This document shows, piece after piece, positions 1 to 32,722 of a stretch of 39,526 nucleotides of DNA; the first letter of the stretch is position 1, and every line of letters begins with the position of its first letter. Both the position numbers and the translations under genes were made by a program. The DNA is taken from positions 1 through 39,526 of the forward strand of contig MNVD01000010.1 in the NCBI GenBank assembly GCA_001871445.1. The letters run 5' to 3'. The notes beneath the pieces were generated by a model. It was not told the DNA's origin. It saw nothing but the letters and a program-made list of their open reading frames with translations, and did not search any database. This DNA is from Candidatus Magasanikbacteria bacterium CG1_02_41_34. Lineage in GTDB: Bacteria; Patescibacteriota; Patescibacteriia; Magasanikbacterales; UBA922.

Positions 1-144
1 TTTAAAATCATCAATTTCTTGTTGTAAACTACGACGCTCTTCATCGAGTGTCAAAAAGCGATCAATATCGACAGATACGTTTCTATTTTTACAGTTCTCC
101 TTTACCAACGCTACATTTTCTCGAATGAATTTTATATCTAACAT
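1..144 (-). CDS. serS: Seryl-tRNA synthetase, N-terminal fragment (runs off the left edge)
   Basis: Reverse-strand translation from ATG at 144: MLDIKFIRENVALVKENCKNRNVSVDIDRFLTLDEERRSLQQEIDDFK, typical SerRS N-terminal coiled-coil arm. Confidence 0.88.
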   Translation of the reverse strand, partial: MLDIKFIRENVALVKENCKNRNVSVDIDRFLTLDEERRSLQQEIDDFK

Positions 145-3227: not shown

Positions 3228-3256
3228 TTGACAAAATATACTATTTGTGCTATATT
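3228..3256 (+). promoter_or_regulatory. Sigma70-like promoter of GC-rich cassette 1
   Basis: TTGACA (3228-3233), 17-nt spacer, TATATT (3251-3256). Confidence 0.8.
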
Positions 3257-3273
3257 TTTCTGTCTTTGTGCCT

Positions 3274-3307
3274 GGAAGAAAGTTGTTGAGCATAACACTT
3301 TTCTTCC
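3274..3307 (+). promoter_or_regulatory. 5' leader hairpin 1
   Basis: GGAAGAAA-gt-TGTT-gagcat-AACA-ct-TTTCTTCC inverted repeat. Confidence 0.6.
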
Positions 3308-3312
3308 ATGTG

Positions 3313-3334
3313 CAACGCGCAATCCAGCGCGTTG
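3313..3334 (+). promoter_or_regulatory. 5' leader hairpin 2, 10 nt before the SD
   Basis: CAACGCGC-aatcca-GCGCGTTG, perfect 8-bp stem; then AGGAGG at 3345-3350 and ATG at 3355. Confidence 0.75.
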
Positions 3335-3354
3335 ACAGTCTATTAGGAGGTCAC

Positions 3355-3729
3355 ATGGATACGCCGACCCAGCTCCCGAAGTGGAGCTACACCGCCAATG
3401 GGCTTCCCGAGGCCCCTACGATGGAGTGCGTCCTGTACGTGCTCCACCGCAACACAACCCTCAGGGAGCAGACTGGGGCGGAGAGCATGTGGGACTTCTG
3501 CTACGACAACAGCCCCACATTCATCACGAACTGCCTGCAGGTGGCAGGGGTTGCCTACACCAGGATCAAAAACGCGCGGAAATCAAGCCCAACCCGAACG
3601 CTGTTGGGAGTGATGATCATCGCGATCATCCAGGCTGTCATCTACGAGATGGCTCCGGATGAGTACCTCCAGATGCAGAACGATTTCATGCAACGCAAGA
3701 TCAAGGAGCTGGCCAGTACGACGTCCTAG
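3355..3729 (+). CDS. Hypothetical 124-aa protein with one hydrophobic segment, encoded in a GC-rich island
   Basis: ATG preceded by AGGAGG; MDTPTQLPKWSYTANG...TLLGVMIIAIIQAVIYEMAPDEYLQ...; consensus promoter upstream and stem-loop downstream. Family not recognised. Confidence 0.75.
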   Translation: MDTPTQLPKWSYTANGLPEAPTMECVLYVLHRNTTLREQTGAESMWDFCYDNSPTFITNCLQVAGVAYTRIKNARKSSPTRTLLGVMIIAIIQAVIYEMAPDEYLQMQNDFMQRKIKELASTTS

Positions 3730-3757
3730 GTCATCAGCGTCCGCGCCGACCCCGCCC

Positions 3758-3798
3758 GTGAATGCCCGCCCGATCAGTCAACACGGGTGGGCATTCAC
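3758..3798 (+). other. Long stem-loop 3' of GC-rich cassette 1
   Basis: GTGAATGCCCGCCCG-11 nt-CGGGTGGGCATTCAC; 15-bp stem with one G-U; no T-run immediately after. Confidence 0.8.
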
Positions 3799-3812: not shown

Positions 3813-3842
3813 AAAAAAACACGCTCGAAGGCGCGTTTTTTT
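3813..3842. terminator. Bidirectional intrinsic terminator between cassette 1 and greA
   Basis: AAAAAAACACGC...GCGCGTTTTTTT, A-run and T-run flanking a short GC stem. Confidence 0.7.
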
Positions 3843-18406: not shown

Positions 18407-19552
18407 TTACTTTTCTTGAAGCCATGGATCGAGCATGTTTACTTGATTTTCCCAAACAAACTCTGTCTTGATGCGATCTTGAGCATTCTTTCCTAATTCG
18501 TCAGCATAGGATGTATTTTTGAGCATGTCCACAATAGTGTCAATCACACTCGGATCGCCCTGATAGAGGTCAACGAGAATCCCAGTCTCTGCATGAAGTA
18601 CTGCCTCCTCTACCCCCCCACTCTTTCCTGCTACAACAGGCAGTGCCGCTGCTGCAGCCTCGAGGAATACAAGTCCGAGCCCTTCTTCTCTTCCTTCATC
18701 TGGATGTGTGAGCAAAACAAACAGATCGGCAAGGTAGTAAAACTTTTTCAATTTATCGTGAGGGATTTCTCCTACATAGCGAACGATGTTTTGAAGATTA
18801 TTTTTTTGAACTTGTTCAAGAATATACTCTTTTTTTGGTCCGTCTCCAATGAGCATCCAAACAAGATGAGGTACTTGCTCAAGAATTTTTGGCATCATAC
18901 GAAGCAGATGAGGAAATCCTTTCCCTTCATCAAATCGCGATACCGTCAGTATGACTTGCTTGCCATGGAGTGCATAGGTATTTTTTAATTCTTCTATAAC
19001 AGCATTGCCTGGTGGCGTGAGAAATGTTTTTTCTGGGCATGGATACATGACAAGTGTACTTGATTCAAACTGAGGAAAGAGTTGAACGTATCTATTCTTG
19101 AGTGATTCACTATTAAAAATAATTTTTGTGGCATATTTTGATACCCCAGCAATCCGTTTTCTCTTCCATGACGATTTGCTGGCAGCAAGGAGATCTGTAC
19201 CATGTGAAAAAAGAAGAAATGGCACCTTGGTAAACTTGCTCGCAATACTTGCCGCATAGCCGACGGGCAAGACATGATGCACCATGATGAGTTCAATCTT
19301 TTCTTTCTTTACAATGCGCCATACTTGCCACACAAGACGAACCCATCGTGGCCATACGAATCTTGGAAAGAGTAGATTTTTTCGAATAATATAGTAAAGT
19401 TGTTTTTCATCCCATTCTTTCATGCCTTTCATTTTTGGAGCAAGTACTACTGTTTTTTTGGGATCAAGTGTATTGGCAAGATCATGTACATATGTCGCAA
19501 TACCACCAACTTGTGGTGGATATTCGAGTGTGATAATGAGTGTTTTTTTCAT
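18407..19552 (-). CDS. Glycosyltransferase family 4 (GT-B)
   Basis: LEYPPQVGGIATYVHDLA...ILTVSRFDEGKGFPHLLRMMPKIL...GREEGLGLVFLEAAAAALPVVAGKSGGVEEAV. Confidence 0.93.
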   Translation of the reverse strand: MKKTLIITLEYPPQVGGIATYVHDLANTLDPKKTVVLAPKMKGMKEWDEKQLYYIIRKNLLFPRFVWPRWVRLVWQVWRIVKKEKIELIMVHHVLPVGYAASIASKFTKVPFLLFSHGTDLLAASKSSWKRKRIAGVSKYATKIIFNSESLKNRYVQLFPQFESSTLVMYPCPEKTFLTPPGNAVIEELKNTYALHGKQVILTVSRFDEGKGFPHLLRMMPKILEQVPHLVWMLIGDGPKKEYILEQVQKNNLQNIVRYVGEIPHDKLKKFYYLADLFVLLTHPDEGREEGLGLVFLEAAAAALPVVAGKSGGVEEAVLHAETGILVDLYQGDPSVIDTIVDMLKNTSYADELGKNAQDRIKTEFVWENQVNMLDPWLQEK

Positions 19553-19553
19553 A

Positions 19554-20981
19554 TTATTTTCGAATCAATTGCAGTGCCTCTTTCAATTCTACCATACATA
19601 CAGAGCGTGTGAGGAAAAGCAATATTGGATATATGACTGCGCCGACAAGTATAGCATAGAAAAAATTGACTTGGGTATTCACGGCATACACCGCAAGAGC
19701 CATGCCTCCAGCTGAAAACAAAATTTGAAAAAATGTCTTTGCTATATAGCCATGTGATACATGTGTAATCTTTGGAACGATAAAATAGCCAAAGACTGTC
19801 AGCAGTACATTGCCAACGAGTGCGGCTACCGCAGCACCAGCCACACCGAGACGAGGAATCAAAATTATATTTAAAAATATATTTACTACCATTACTGTAC
19901 CGACTATAGCAGTCTGTGCTTTTTGTTTGTCACAGGCATTGAGAAATGCGCCAATCGGAAAACTCAGATATGAAAAAATGAGGCTGATAATCAAAATTTG
20001 AAGTGGCAGTACAGAAGGCAAATATTCATCTGTGTAGAGAAGAAGAACGATATCTTTGGAAAGTACGGCAATACCAAACGCAATCGGCATTGCAATAAGC
20101 AGTAAATACTTCACACCCTGCTCAAACACTTGCGAAAGCTTTTTTTTGTCGTGTGCAAAATATTCGCTAAACTTTGGATACAGCGCTGCGATGAGTGCGA
20201 GAGGGATGAATTGGAATGCGTATGTGATTTTGTATGGAATACTATAAAATCCAACTGCTTCGTTTCCCATCATTTTGGAAAGCAAAATAGAATCGATATA
20301 TGAATACACGCGCGCAAAGACAGCCGCAAGGGCAAACGGAATCGCAATACGTGCAATATGCTTTGCCACATCAGATTTGTACGATGGCTTAAGAGTAAGA
20401 TGATGTTTTATTTTGAGTATTGCAATAACAAATATCACGTTTGCTGCACTGGAGACGGTAAACGCAAAAATAAGGTAAATAAGTGGAAAACCTGCATACA
20501 AAAAAAACGTCCCCAAAATTAATGTAAGAAGCTGACTGCCAATAATACTCATTGCTTCGTATTTGAGCTCTCCTAGGGCTCTGAGTGACCCGTAGAGGGT
20601 AAGGTGGAGAGAATCAAGGAGCATCGTTACAGCCGAAAGATAGACAAGATGTCTTGTCTCTATATCGTACCCTATCAGATTGATCACTATCACTGCAGCA
20701 AGATAGCTGAGAAGCCCAAGTCCAATCTTGATTGACAAAATAGTACTAAGATATTCACCAAGTTTTTCTTTTGCTTTTGAAGATTCTCGAATAAAGACAT
20801 TTGTCAATCCAAGATCAACGAATACGACAAACACTGTGGTAAATGACAATGCAAAAAAATATGTCCCAGTACCAGATACCCCGATCTTCCTAGCAATGAG
20901 AGTGAAGTACGCAAAAGCAATGACTTTCTGAAACACAGAAGCCACAGTCATGAACAAAGTATTTTTTGCAGTAGAAGCCAT
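19554..20981 (-). CDS. Polysaccharide flippase (Wzx/MATE-like)
   Basis: 475 aa multi-TM; NTLFMTVASVFQKVIAFAYFTLIARKIGVSGTGTYFFALSF. Confidence 0.9.
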   Translation of the reverse strand: MASTAKNTLFMTVASVFQKVIAFAYFTLIARKIGVSGTGTYFFALSFTTVFVVFVDLGLTNVFIRESSKAKEKLGEYLSTILSIKIGLGLLSYLAAVIVINLIGYDIETRHLVYLSAVTMLLDSLHLTLYGSLRALGELKYEAMSIIGSQLLTLILGTFFLYAGFPLIYLIFAFTVSSAANVIFVIAILKIKHHLTLKPSYKSDVAKHIARIAIPFALAAVFARVYSYIDSILLSKMMGNEAVGFYSIPYKITYAFQFIPLALIAALYPKFSEYFAHDKKKLSQVFEQGVKYLLLIAMPIAFGIAVLSKDIVLLLYTDEYLPSVLPLQILIISLIFSYLSFPIGAFLNACDKQKAQTAIVGTVMVVNIFLNIILIPRLGVAGAAVAALVGNVLLTVFGYFIVPKITHVSHGYIAKTFFQILFSAGGMALAVYAVNTQVNFFYAILVGAVIYPILLFLTRSVCMVELKEALQLIRK

Positions 20982-21039
20982 GAAATCAATTCAAAATGCT
21001 TCTTCAGTATACGCTAGATTTAGCGAAGAAACAAGATTA

Positions 21040-21081
21040 AAAAAAAAACCTTGTCATACATAAAAATTATCGAGACAAGGT
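21040..21081 (-). terminator. Intrinsic terminator downstream of 21106-22038
   Basis: Minus strand ACCTTGTC...GACAAGGT followed by TTTTTTTT. Confidence 0.75.
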
Positions 21082-21105
21082 CTTCATTTTTATAGTGATT
21101 TTTTG

Positions 21106-22038
21106 CTATTTACTAATGGGCACTTCTGGGAATGCTTTATCGAGCAAGGGAGTATTTTTTGCAAAACAATATTCTCCTGCTGGATGTTGCCAATCTTTAC
21201 TTGCTATTGCACTCTCATCTTTTCGTGATGTATCTTCGGTATTGGTATCAAAAGTTGCACAAAGCATGTAGTTGTCTCCCTCACCGACTTTATATCCATA
21301 CTGATCACCAGTTGAAGGATCAACAAAATTGTTTATACTTTGATCATACGGTGAGGTAACTCTCAGTGCGTCTAATGACTCGGGAAGTACTTTATTTGTT
21401 GTATAATAAGATTCTATTTGATACTGAATAGACTGCAACGCAGAAACACGTTCATTATCCAGTCTTTGCAGACGTGCCTGTGTAGGAGAGCCAACAACAA
21501 AAAATGTAAGTACAATAAGCGCAACACTAACAACCGTGGTAGACCAGAGATAGATACTTCGTTTTTGCTTTGTAAGTCCATCTTTTATATCGAGAAGATA
21601 GTATGAAAAGACCAACGCAGCAACAGCAATAGTAGCGAGCGCTTTCAAAATAAATCTGCTCGAAATTTCACCTGAAAGAAATGTATTGACAATCATGATA
21701 AGCGTCACTATGACGATGATTGCTGCCACAAAAAGCGTCAGATACATGAGCCACTTTCGCATTTTGAACGCTTTTCTCTCTGGCTCTTTTGTATACATTT
21801 TTGCCAAAAATATTCTACTGCCTAGGAATACTGGCAGTGTAATAATGAGCATGGAGAGACCTGTACGGAGGATGCCACTAGAATAATCATAGCGCCACAT
21901 ATCAGCACTCACCTCAGGAAAGAGATAATTTATCAGCTGAAAGGTGACCATGAGGAAGGCAATTGCACTCAAGTAGAGTGTAATACTGCTGAGAAGATGA
22001 AGAAAAAAATCCTTTGCTCCTGTGTCATGCTGTGTCAT
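21106..22038 (-). CDS. Multi-TM protein (DUF5671-like N-term) with soluble pseudopilin-like C-terminal domain
   Basis: TM N-half; C-half RLDNERVSALQSIQYQIESYYTTNKVLPESLDAL...FVDPSTGDQYGYKVGEGDNYMLCATFDT. Confidence 0.65.
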   Translation of the reverse strand: MTQHDTGAKDFFLHLLSSITLYLSAIAFLMVTFQLINYLFPEVSADMWRYDYSSGILRTGLSMLIITLPVFLGSRIFLAKMYTKEPERKAFKMRKWLMYLTLFVAAIIVIVTLIMIVNTFLSGEISSRFILKALATIAVAALVFSYYLLDIKDGLTKQKRSIYLWSTTVVSVALIVLTFFVVGSPTQARLQRLDNERVSALQSIQYQIESYYTTNKVLPESLDALRVTSPYDQSINNFVDPSTGDQYGYKVGEGDNYMLCATFDTNTEDTSRKDESAIASKDWQHPAGEYCFAKNTPLLDKAFPEVPISK

Positions 22039-22070
22039 ATGGACAGAGTTAAGAAATAAGAAGGGAGAAA

Positions 22071-22646
22071 TCACTTTTTATGCGTCTGTAATTCAGTAGC
22101 CACTCCTTCCAATCTTTTCATATACAAGACGAGTGCATCGATTGTTTTTTTTATTCTTGAAAGATATTCATCTTTGCGAGTGACATTTCCCTTTTCGTCA
22201 AGAAATGTCTGTACATTGTCAAAACGAAGACTAAATGGGAGAAATATCATCCCTATTTCACTCAACACTGGCTGGATGTGCTCAATGAGTCGAGAGCCAC
22301 CAAGGATACCTGCTGAGACGGCCGCAACAATAACAGGCTTACCTCTATATGCATCATGCTCTTGATCTAGGAGTATTTTCAATTCTCCCGGATAGCCGTG
22401 ATTATATTCAGGACTCACAATAATAAATCCATCAGTTTTTGCTACGATATTTTTCCATACTTTTGTGTCATCATTTTCTTCCCATGGTGGAATAGTTCTT
22501 CCAGACAGATGATCCTTCACATCAACGAGCTCAATAGTAACATCCTCACGTGAAGCTATTTCTGTATACAAAAAGTTTGCAATATGTTCAGAGAGTCTTC
22601 CCTCTCTCGCTGTCCCAAGAAGAATTGTAATATGTAGTTTTTTCAT
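22071..22646 (-). CDS. NAD(P)H-dependent FMN reductase family protein
   Basis: ILLGTAREGRLSEHIANFLY...GFIIVSPEYNHGYPGELKILLDQEHDAYRGKPVIVAAVSAGILGG. Confidence 0.9.
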   Translation of the reverse strand: MKKLHITILLGTAREGRLSEHIANFLYTEIASREDVTIELVDVKDHLSGRTIPPWEENDDTKVWKNIVAKTDGFIIVSPEYNHGYPGELKILLDQEHDAYRGKPVIVAAVSAGILGGSRLIEHIQPVLSEIGMIFLPFSLRFDNVQTFLDEKGNVTRKDEYLSRIKKTIDALVLYMKRLEGVATELQTHKK

Positions 22647-22728
22647 ATATTAGAAGTATAGCAGAGTACACTACGATGAACTAGGGACTGATCTCAAATA
22701 TGTACATTAGAGTTAAAAAAATGGAGTA

Positions 22729-22881
22729 TTAAAACTCCATTTCTTCGTCTTCTTCAAGTTCATCAATTTCTTCGATCTCATCGAGATCCCCTTGGATACA
22801 TTCACATGTACCACAGACATCACATCCTCCACAGATGAGACAGAGAGCTGACTCACAAGTAGGACATACTGCGTCGGTCAT
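22729..22881 (-). CDS. Cysteine-rich mini-protein (50 aa) with acidic tail; putative metal-binding
   Basis: Manual translation MTDAVCPTCESALCLICGGCDVCGTCECIQGDLDEIEEIDELEEDEEMEF*; own promoter and terminator; below the ORF-track size cutoff. Confidence 0.7.
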   Translation of the reverse strand: MTDAVCPTCESALCLICGGCDVCGTCECIQGDLDEIEEIDELEEDEEMEF

Positions 22882-22911
22882 AAATATATACTACATTGCT
22901 AATACTACAAA

Positions 22912-22941
22912 AGTATACGAAGGAACACCACTTCTCGTCAA
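22912..22941 (-). promoter_or_regulatory. Sigma70-like promoter of the Cys-rich mini-protein gene
   Basis: Minus strand TTGACG (22941-22936), 18-nt spacer, TATACT (22917-22912). Confidence 0.7.
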
Positions 22942-22956
22942 CATGCACTGTGGATA

Positions 22957-23373
22957 CTACTTCACGTCTCTGTACTTTTTTGCAACACCAATACGAGCTG
23001 TTTCTCGTTCTATCATAGCCTGAATACGAACAAAATCTACATCTGCAAGTGCATCTTTTTCTTTCATCATTTTTTCTGCTCGTGCTCGAGCGGCTTCCGC
23101 ACGTTCTACATCAATATCTTCCGCACGTTCAGATGTATCTGCCAGGAGGTAGACTTCAGAATTTGGTCTAATTTCTAAAATTCCTGTTGATACCGCAAGA
23201 TGAACAATTTGACCATTTTTGTGTACAAAAACAGCGCCTGGTACAAGTGTTGATACGAGTGGCGCATGATTTTCAAGAACTGTAATTTCCCCATCTCCTG
23301 TGGGGATAGTAACTTTTTCTATTTCGTCTTCGTATGTAACACCATTTGGTGTCACAATTTTGAAGGTAATCAT
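22957..23373 (-). CDS. atpC: ATP synthase F1 epsilon subunit
   Basis: MITFKIVTPNGVTYEDEIEKVTIPTGDGEITVLENHAPLVSTLVPG. Confidence 0.93.
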   Translation of the reverse strand: MITFKIVTPNGVTYEDEIEKVTIPTGDGEITVLENHAPLVSTLVPGAVFVHKNGQIVHLAVSTGILEIRPNSEVYLLADTSERAEDIDVERAEAARARAEKMMKEKDALADVDFVRIQAMIERETARIGVAKKYRDVK

Positions 23374-23381
23374 ATGTTAGA

Positions 23382-23696
23382 TTATTCGTTGATTTGTTGA
23401 ATGGAATCTATTTGTTCTCTTAATGCCTGTGCATAGCTTATGAATGTCGATTTGTATGAACTATCTGCAAATTTTGGAATTCTTTTCGATATAGCATCTT
23501 GAATTATATTTGCTAAGGCTTTCTCAGACATACCAGATATTTCAGTTCTCTGTTCTTGAGAAATTTTATTTAATATGGTTTGGGCAACCACCTCAGCGGA
23601 GACACTCCCGCATTCATTCAATGAATGGAATATATGGCTATCAAAAGCATTTGGATCACCTGGATATATATCAATTGTATGGTGCTTTTCTGACAT
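23382..23696 (-). CDS. Hypothetical 104-aa protein inside the atp operon
   Basis: ORF MSEKHHTIDIYPGDPNAFDSHIFHSLNECG..., tightly spaced between atpC and the cyclophilin gene. Confidence 0.65.
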   Translation of the reverse strand: MSEKHHTIDIYPGDPNAFDSHIFHSLNECGSVSAEVVAQTILNKISQEQRTEISGMSEKALANIIQDAISKRIPKFADSSYKSTFISYAQALREQIDSIQQINE

Positions 23697-23698
23697 AA

Positions 23699-24415
23699 TT
23701 ATTTTACCAATTCAACGCTCTCCACCACAATAGGTATCAATGGTCGATCTTGTGGTCCTGTCGATACTTTTTCAATAGTTTCAACAACATTCATTCCTTC
23801 TACCACCTCACCAAAGTTTGTATGTTTTCCATTGAGCCACGGAGTTTCTGGAGCAGTAACTATGAAAAACTGTGATCCATTTGTATTTGGTCCAGCATTT
23901 GCCATAGCAAGGCTTCCACGAACAAGTGGTTCATCGTTAAATTCATCTTCAAATCGATAGTTTGGTCCACCCGTTCCCCACATCGCTACTTTACTATCAT
24001 CTTTTGAAAGCAAATCTCCTCCCTGAATCATGAAGTCTACAATGATACGATGAAATTTTGTTCCGTCGTACTCCCCTGCTTTTGCAAGATTGAGAAAATT
24101 ATTTACAGTCTTTGGAGATTTGTCTACAAACAATGCTACCGTAATATCTCCAAGATTAGTATGGAGTACGGCTCGTGAATATTCAATAGCAAGATCTTCT
24201 TGTCCATTGATTGTTCTGTTTGAATTTGTCATAGGTGGAAGTTCTGTTACAGTAGCACTTGGTGCTGCAGAAGATGATACTGGTTCTTCTATTACGACAT
24301 CACTTTGCTGATCCATTTCCTGATCATTCACAGGCAATGTTGTATGTTGTTGCTGTGGTATAGAGACACATCCTACACCGATAATAAGAAAAACAAGGGG
24401 AAGAAAAAATTTCAT
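23699..24415 (-). CDS. Cyclophilin-type peptidyl-prolyl isomerase, lipoprotein
   Basis: LIIGVGC lipobox; GEYDGTKFHRIIVDFMIQGGDLLSKDDS...SLAMANAGPNTNGSQFFIVTAPETPWLNGKHTNFGEVVEGMNVV. Confidence 0.95.
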   Translation of the reverse strand: MKFFLPLVFLIIGVGCVSIPQQQHTTLPVNDQEMDQQSDVVIEEPVSSSAAPSATVTELPPMTNSNRTINGQEDLAIEYSRAVLHTNLGDITVALFVDKSPKTVNNFLNLAKAGEYDGTKFHRIIVDFMIQGGDLLSKDDSKVAMWGTGGPNYRFEDEFNDEPLVRGSLAMANAGPNTNGSQFFIVTAPETPWLNGKHTNFGEVVEGMNVVETIEKVSTGPQDRPLIPIVVESVELVK

Positions 24416-24449
24416 AATTCAATATATTGAGAAGACTCTGCATCGAAAC

Positions 24450-25859
<1,410 letters not shown>

Positions 25860-31943: not shown

Positions 31944-31972
31944 AAAAAAACACCTTTCATAGTGTATTTTTT
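31944..31972. terminator. Bidirectional terminator-like hairpin
   Basis: AAAAAAAACAC-CTTTCATA-GTGTATTTTTT. Confidence 0.6.
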
Positions 31973-31976
31973 GACA

Positions 31977-32023
31977 GCAGTAGCCGAGCAAGTCGCGTGA
32001 GGACGCGCCTTGTCGGCCACTGC
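31977..32023 (-). other. Long GC-rich imperfect stem-loop 3' of GC-rich cassette 2
   Basis: GCAGT/ACTGC, GCCGA/TCGGC, CAAG/CTTG, CGCGT/ACGCG stacked with single mismatches or bulges. Confidence 0.75.
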
Positions 32024-32045
32024 ATTAGACGTTCAGACCGGAAGA

Positions 32046-32444
32046 TCAGGAAGCAAACTTACGGCTTCGAAGAGCGTCGTCCGCGTTCTTCGTCGGATCG
32101 TAGGTGACCCAGGAGATACTGACGCTGTCACCATCCTCCAGGACGTCATCCCAAGGGGAATGCTGCGGCGTCCTGCCGTTCCAGGTGACCACGGGGTAGA
32201 CCTGATGCTCATGATCCATGTAGCTCGCGTCTTGCCCAGCAGGCAGACACACACGGGGGTTCTCACCAACCTTGTTCTTCCGCCATGCAGAAGTATATGT
32301 GATGATCTTGAAGCCGTTCGCCTCAAGCACCTCACCCAACGTCTGTCCGCTTCGCCCGATGTAGGTGCATGCCTGACCGAGCACACCCGTGCTGATGAGG
32401 ATGGAGCCACAACCCAGAATCTTCAGAAAACTTCGTCTGTTCAT
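32046..32444 (-). CDS. Hypothetical exported protein (132 aa), Tat-like signal, encoded in a GC-rich island
   Basis: ATG after GGAGGG SD; MNRRSFLKILGCGSILISTGVLGQACTY (RRSFLK Tat-like motif); later NGRTPQHSPWDDVLEDGDSVSISW weakly resembles DUF4430/beta-grasp proteins. Confidence 0.7.
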   Translation of the reverse strand: MNRRSFLKILGCGSILISTGVLGQACTYIGRSGQTLGEVLEANGFKIITYTSAWRKNKVGENPRVCLPAGQDASYMDHEHQVYPVVTWNGRTPQHSPWDDVLEDGDSVSISWVTYDPTKNADDALRSRKFAS

Positions 32445-32466
32445 CCGCTTCCCTCCAAGAAAGCAA

Positions 32467-32487
32467 AACCCGCCGAGTTGGCGGGTT
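32467..32487 (-). promoter_or_regulatory. 5' leader hairpin of GC-rich cassette 2
   Basis: Minus strand AACCCGCC-aactc-GGCGGGTT followed by U-rich TTGCTTTCTT and then GGAGGG. Confidence 0.75.
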
Positions 32488-32614
32488 GGTTGAAGAAATG
32501 TGCCATGCCTGCTGAATACACAAAAATAGTCAGAATGCACTGCACATCTCTATCACCTCACCACTCCTGCTCGGGAGTTTGCTGTGACTTAGATATCATC
32601 TTTGACGATCGGAC

Positions 32615-32634
32615 TCCTCCCGATTCCATCGGGA
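32615..32634. repeat. Palindromic repeat copy 2 (TCCTCCCGATTCCATCGGGA)
   Basis: 18/20 identical to 31847-31866. Confidence 0.8.
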
Positions 32635-32722
32635 GTTTACCGTTGCGGCACAGTGAGGGGATGAACCTTGTCCGACCGAAGTCTTGACGAAGGTGGAACC
32701 CTACTTCCACAAAGAGATATCT

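Follow-up and report, generated by a model that had tools for sequence, protein, structure and literature searches.

Phage morons are autonomous units of promoter, gene and terminator, of odd base composition, that are inserted between core genes, and integron gene cassettes are small units, each made of one gene and a 3' inverted repeat, whose coding part varies between relatives. In a window of 39,526 nucleotides of Magasanikbacteria DNA (contig MNVD01000010.1) we analysed a GC-rich unit between lysS and greA, here called cassette 1, that resembles both. Like a moron, it is a single gene of odd composition with its own promoter and a 3' hairpin that probably ends the transcript, it is located between conserved genes, and it is present or absent among relatives. 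It differs from morons in its location in a bacterial chromosome contig, flanked by lysS and greA without surrounding prophage, and in that members of its class keep their high GC over long divergence and have long, structured leaders. With integron cassettes these units share the compact one-gene layout, the 3' inverted repeat and a coding part that differs between relatives; however, each of them has its own promoter and occupies an ordinary intergenic gap, singly or with a few others in a row, and no attC-like site is shared. In 44 genomes the 3' hairpin of cassette 1 occurred nowhere outside the greA–lysS site of its own genome (G000) and of one of three sister genomes from the same genus (G003; the others are G001 and G002). 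Since the hairpin is unique to this site, a 3' end acting as a dispersed recombination element was ruled out.

Two further kinds of gene offer a comparison. Like ORFans, or taxonomically restricted genes, the cassette genes are short, fast-evolving and without a family match, but they form a class that is defined by composition and architecture, and their signals for transcription and translation are strong and conserved. Like effector or venom-type genes, they combine a conserved shell with proteins of approximately 35% identity beside neighbours of approximately 95%, and the class is enriched in cysteine and N-terminal hydrophobic segments; however, no N-terminal signal was seen in the 124-aa product of cassette 1, and every estimable pair gave an omega below 1. 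The relaxation of composition expected of a recently acquired foreign gene failed in nine class members, which kept a GC3 above the decay ceiling. The likeliest description of cassette 1 is an accessory unit of one gene, similar to a moron, whose product changes quickly while its transcript is kept folded and rich in GC.

The promoter of cassette 1 (3228–3256, plus strand) consists of the −35 element TTGACA (3228–3233), a 17-nt spacer with an extended −10 TGC, and the −10 element TATATT (3251–3256). A pattern scan matched 11 of the 12 consensus positions, and the region is an exact match to the motif TTGACAAAA-N9-TGTGCTATAKT. Folding of the leader on the same strand gave a first hairpin at 3273–3308 and a second, CAACGCGC / GCGCGTTG, at 3313–3334, which is also evident from the sequence; the whole leader had an MFE of −35.4 kcal/mol (z = −4.3 versus dinucleotide shuffles). 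The Shine–Dalgarno sequence AGGAGG (3345–3350, plus strand) precedes the 124-aa ORF (3355–3729, plus strand; ATG at 3355, stop TAG at 3727–3729), and the probable transcript end is a stem-loop on the same strand (3758–3798; z = −5.0), conserved at the site in G003, with a 15-bp stem (3758–3772/3784–3798) that includes one G-U pair. Because the stem is not followed by a canonical T-tract, we infer its role as a terminator. A second hairpin with T-runs and AT-rich flanks, located between cassette 1 and greA (3813–3842) and kept in G003, is probably the greA terminator and may act bidirectionally. Judged by these signals, cassette 1 is an autonomous unit with its own predicted promoter, leader, Shine–Dalgarno sequence, ORF and 3' hairpin. 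No Rfam family matched cassette 1 at gathering score; a tRNA was the only such match in the window and three loci of the class, and weak matches below that score were taken as chance.

The original prediction had named the promoter, the two leader hairpins, AGGAGG, the 124-aa ORF and the 15-bp stem-loop, all of which we found where it had placed them, and its hand count of 41 G or C among the 60 nucleotides of 3361–3420 was exact. The ORF has a GC content of 0.58 (GC1/2/3 = 0.48/0.42/0.83), and its codon usage differed from that of its neighbours as claimed: five other genes of the window (lysS, greA, the PBP gene, atpD and atpA) have a GC of 0.40–0.42 and a GC3 of 0.25–0.31. One more GC-rich unit lies in the window, on the minus strand (32046–32444), with a 132-aa ORF of GC3 0.68 and a Tat- or lipoprotein-like N-terminus. 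A GC island covers about 31948–32527 here, and the cassette (31948–32687) is located between tatD and a 682-aa ORF; it is absent in G002, where the junction genes are about 70 bp apart.

The 124-aa protein had been described as belonging to no recognised family, in agreement with our searches of Pfam, NCBIfam, PHROGs, PADLOC and PDB, which gave no match; weak PDB profile matches (E 0.05 or worse) were taken as chance. No homologue was detected in phage, plasmid, IMG/VR and GTDB-contig searches, in which mainly close relatives are detectable. The sole homologue, of 33% identity, is encoded in G003 away from greA–lysS, adjoining a recO-like gene, and a profile search of 46 family genomes added no other. 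The residues common to the two proteins include W10, Y12, H31, W46, C49, C60 and M99-A100-P101. The homologous gene has a GC3 of about 0.92 and the same promoter type as cassette 1, with a different 3' hairpin; RdgC matches to its product (E 0.004–0.009) were taken as chance. Of the single hydrophobic segment that had been predicted, the segment itself stood, since a hydropathy scan placed it at residues 80–96, but it is not hydrophobic in the homologue, which makes a packed helix more likely than a membrane span. A simple hydropathy scan detected no N-terminal hydrophobic segment or export signal. An AlphaFold model built from the two sequences was all-helical at low confidence (pLDDT 63), with no significant structural fold match in PDB. 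The product is probably a small helical intracellular protein.

We compared the greA–lysS gap across Patescibacteria. The two genes adjoin, greA upstream, in 63 retrieved loci, where the median distance between them is 56 bp; only in this genus did any of these loci contain a GC-rich insert (150-bp GC of at least 0.6). Between the sister genomes the gap varies: it measures 155 bp in G002 and contains one small cassette in G001 and two in G003. Besides the counterpart of cassette 1, the G003 gap contains a GC-rich unit (L025:1440–2010) with two ORFs, of 50 and 101 aa, the shorter of which resembles the sole ORF at the G001 site. The G003 counterpart of cassette 1 matches it in position and orientation. 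Its upstream flank is 85% identical, the TTGACAAAAT part of the promoter is kept at the same site, the last nine nucleotides of the ORF, GACGTCCTA, are common to both in the same reading frame, and the 3' hairpins are 82% identical; the two proteins showed no similarity (BLASTP, E 100). Relative to this sister, cassette 1 appears to have undergone either replacement of the ORF, its coding part being swapped within a kept shell, or extreme divergence to the point of complete dissimilarity, and the two readings stand side by side because some cassettes retain only about 35% identity where their neighbours retain about 95%. Similar turnover was observed at an ABC-transporter site, where promoter and 3' hairpin are common to three species, the proteins are at most 35% identical, and the fourth species is empty. 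From these comparisons cassette 1 appears to be young, a lineage-specific unit gained in the greA–lysS gap within this genus. The gene is genus-restricted and patchy, and is not inherited vertically as an ordinary conserved gene.

Cassette 1 is one of many such units. In a 312-kb sample of G000, the GC content over 200 bp peaked mainly at 0.40, with another shelf at 0.58–0.70 that is made by many units resembling cassette 1; the class statistics cover about a third of the genome, and since contigs were partly chosen for promoter-like matches the frequency of the class may be overestimated. Windows exceeding the median by 0.15 GC made up 0.1–5.6% of sampled sequence in this genus and 1.0–4.6% in five other genera of the family, compared to 0.16% in 77 lysS neighbourhoods of other, mostly distant Patescibacteria, which are housekeeping regions and serve as a rough control only. 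The original prediction had proposed a look for the same cassette type in related genomes, and sister species do have comparable units at matching loci. The promoter and leader of cassette 1, used as a DNA query, matched six other places in the genome, four of them followed by a GC-rich stretch (L004–L007). Across the four genomes we compared 75 GC-rich ORFs, which were called mechanically so that some may have the wrong frame or strand, with 386 native ORFs. Shine–Dalgarno sites were present in 81% of the GC-rich and 40% of the native ORFs. The pattern TTGAC-16..19-TRnnnT occurred within 300 nt upstream of 45% of the 75 cassettes, 8.5% of the 386 native ORFs and 4% of shuffles, a contrast that partly reflects monocistronic layout, as many native ORFs sit within operons. 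Cysteine accounted for 2.7% of residues in GC-rich ORFs versus 0.7% in native ORFs, and N-terminal hydrophobic segments were found in 38% versus 13% (p = 3e-6). The best matches to the promoter motif in the sample mostly precede GC-rich units; however, the motif was present in 16 of the 16 Patescibacteria genomes tested. It is thus the clade's general strong promoter, which indicates that the cassettes use native signals and weakened the idea of a promoter private to a cassette regulon.

Some class members belong to known families (a PRPP synthetase-like protein, a methyltransferase and a TSP3-repeat protein). The PRPP-synthetase-like gene (L012:12740–13789), which scores below the curated TIGR01251 cut-off, has a matching locus in G002 (83% identity) and adjoins the same neighbour in another genus (G028), with a GC3 of 0.66–0.73 throughout. 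The same locus contains two related tandem small membrane proteins with the common tail INKKDNMTYVVQLHEMNPNIDRVL (L012:3844–4432), which are also in tandem in G003 (L092/L098). A GC-rich gene standing by itself (L024:11521–12138) weakly resembles the LeuA regulatory (dimerisation) domain and is found at the corresponding locus in each of the four species of the genus. Longer runs were also seen. On contig C34 of G000 (about 18996–25369; L016:18996 to L017:5369) four GC-rich ORFs of GC3 0.78–0.91 follow one another; two encode proteins with a membrane segment and then long helical-looking tails, and the run includes a 714-aa thrombospondin type 3/MopE-repeat lipoprotein-like protein. On contig C19 (L021:9947–14887) there are three large GC-rich ORFs of 519, 610 and 172 aa, and the two large ones gave no Pfam match. 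None of 10 class proteins matched a PADLOC model of anti-phage defence, and open-licence papers yielded no account of this class.

The foreign origin that had been suggested for cassette 1 was assessed at the level of the class. In its ordinary form, high-GC ORFs of bacteria or mobile elements would have been captured behind native promoters and would not yet have ameliorated, the shared loci reflecting repeated capture or replacement. The GC-rich codon usage that sets these genes apart from the rest of the genome, the patchy, genus-restricted distribution of the 124-aa gene and the different ORF inside the same shell in G003 are what such a history would leave. Homologues in other genera, which for some class members have a low GC3, also fit; in three of the compared families it is 0.15–0.25, which indicates that the composition is not imposed by the protein family. 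Cassette 1 lacks an ortholog for a direct test of its GC history; nine other cassettes were compared between sister genomes, eight of them with at least one flank shown to be collinear. In all nine, both copies had a GC3 of 0.63–0.93 with heavily diverged synonymous sites. Amino-acid identity fell to 35–36% where most measured flanking proteins were at 92–98%, and omega was about 0.1–0.9 in cassettes versus 0.02–0.17 in flanks, below 1 in every estimable pair. Cassette dS was of the same order as that of the flanks, apart from one pair with saturated dS, which argues against ordinary acquisition. Using native genes to gauge synonymous S/W randomisation, and assuming vertical descent and flank-like mutation pressure, we calculated that neutral decay from a GC3 of 1.0 would leave at most 0.66 (G001), 0.62 (G002) and 0.71 (G003). 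The pooled cassette GC3 observed was 0.81/0.73, 0.75/0.73 and 0.83/0.83, respectively. High GC was thus maintained in the nine cassettes compared. Polarised S/W counts by parsimony were discarded in favour of this ceiling, as minority-state polarisation is biased at skewed composition. The database searches, sensitive mainly to close relatives, revealed no donor homologue in GTDB contigs, phages, plasmids or IMG/VR. The choice between C and G at fourfold sites correlated with that of native genes (r = 0.73, n = 8), which is weak evidence because an unrelated GC-rich phage correlates nearly as well (r = 0.61). The high GC3 kept at matching loci and the use of the clade's own promoter give the class no support for a simple recent, un-ameliorated foreign origin, which may nevertheless apply to the particular ORF of cassette 1, and we regard ordinary acquisition as unlikely, although it deserves serious weight.

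GC-biased gene conversion would lift GC without selection if the cassettes were recombination hot spots. It has been proposed as widespread in bacteria and can oppose preferred AU-ending codons (PMC4450053), and the turnover and replacement of cassettes point to recombination. Conversion tracts should spill over into the surroundings, but the elevated GC was confined. It is still low around the promoter and begins to climb in the leader; the mean for GC-rich ORFs was about 0.55 just before the start and about 0.6 within the ORF, and past the stop it remained at 0.55–0.6 over 60 nt before returning to background, just past the 3' hairpin. The explanation also has to contend with RNA folding. 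Coding regions had a z of −1.20 in cassettes, compared to −0.47 in both native genes and a GC-rich phage control, when codon-preserving shuffles were used (p = 0.003 for both), and gene conversion leaves this excess unexplained. We consider it improbable as the cause of the class composition.

The folding excess in coding regions is modest: with dinucleotide shuffles no difference between the cassettes and the phage control was seen (p = 0.23). The ORF of cassette 1 had a z of −1.9. Leaders with a recognisable promoter had a mean z of −4.8, versus −1.9 for native leaders. Stronger folding than in controls, seen in leaders and more weakly in coding regions, points to selection on RNA. One leader of about 180 nt (L010:12983–13166), belonging to a conserved cassette, is kept in three species; its two long hairpins carry compensatory changes, six pairs being doubly compensated, and it matched no Rfam family. 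It is a candidate cis-regulatory RNA.

Special selection for expression, the alternative offered by the original prediction, persists in a changed, RNA-level form and does not fit the codons. If the cassettes were the organism's most highly expressed genes and used its optimal codons, strong promoters and Shine–Dalgarno sites would be expected, as was observed, and rpoB, rpoC and atpA, the markers used, do shift mildly toward TTC, TAC and AAC. Yet these markers prefer GAA (0.85), GCA, CCA and CGT, whereas the cassettes prefer GAG (0.78), AAG (0.84), GCC/GCG and CCG. This opposite choice argues against ordinary translational optimisation, and we give translational selection a slim chance. Adaptation to expression in a high-GC partner cell after transfer of DNA or RNA would suit the mismatch with the cell's own preferred codons, the near-consensus signals and the epibiotic life of cultivated Patescibacteria (Saccharibacteria on Actinobacteria; PMC10633639), but the promoter type is common across Patescibacteria and this explanation is very improbable.

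The comparisons showed the anatomy of cassette 1, its membership of a class, the persistence of high GC in the nine cassettes, the extra folding of leaders and, to a modest extent, of coding regions, the fast change of the proteins, and units gained or lost and ORFs turned over from one sister species to the next. We tentatively favour, at somewhat below even confidence, the explanation that cassette 1 belongs to a class of accessory units that turn over fast, each an autonomous single gene, and that the transcripts of this class are maintained in a GC-rich and structured state. Transcription from a sigma-70-type promoter, the strong type native to the clade, would yield a short mRNA whose leader folds tightly and which has a strong ribosome-binding site and a stable hairpin at its 3' end. 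High GC in the transcripts would be preserved by selection for mRNA that is folded and long-lived, the units would be highly expressed, and their products may serve a variable, conflict-type role toward host cells, competitors or phages.

Odd GC content is usually taken as a sign of recent gene transfer; here it appears stable over deep divergence and confined to the transcript, and such a signal may identify a functional class of genes. It is possible, though doubtful, that the Magasanikbacteria chromosome holds two composition regimes, an AT-leaning housekeeping regime and scattered autonomous, fast-evolving units whose transcripts, a distinct class of mRNA serving cell interactions, are actively maintained in a GC-rich, folded state. 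Should odd GC indeed mark a functional class, GC content by itself would point to candidate interaction genes in a very large uncultured group with few known partners, and the class would provide a test case for whether RNA-level selection or biased gene conversion can keep genes off the composition of their genome.
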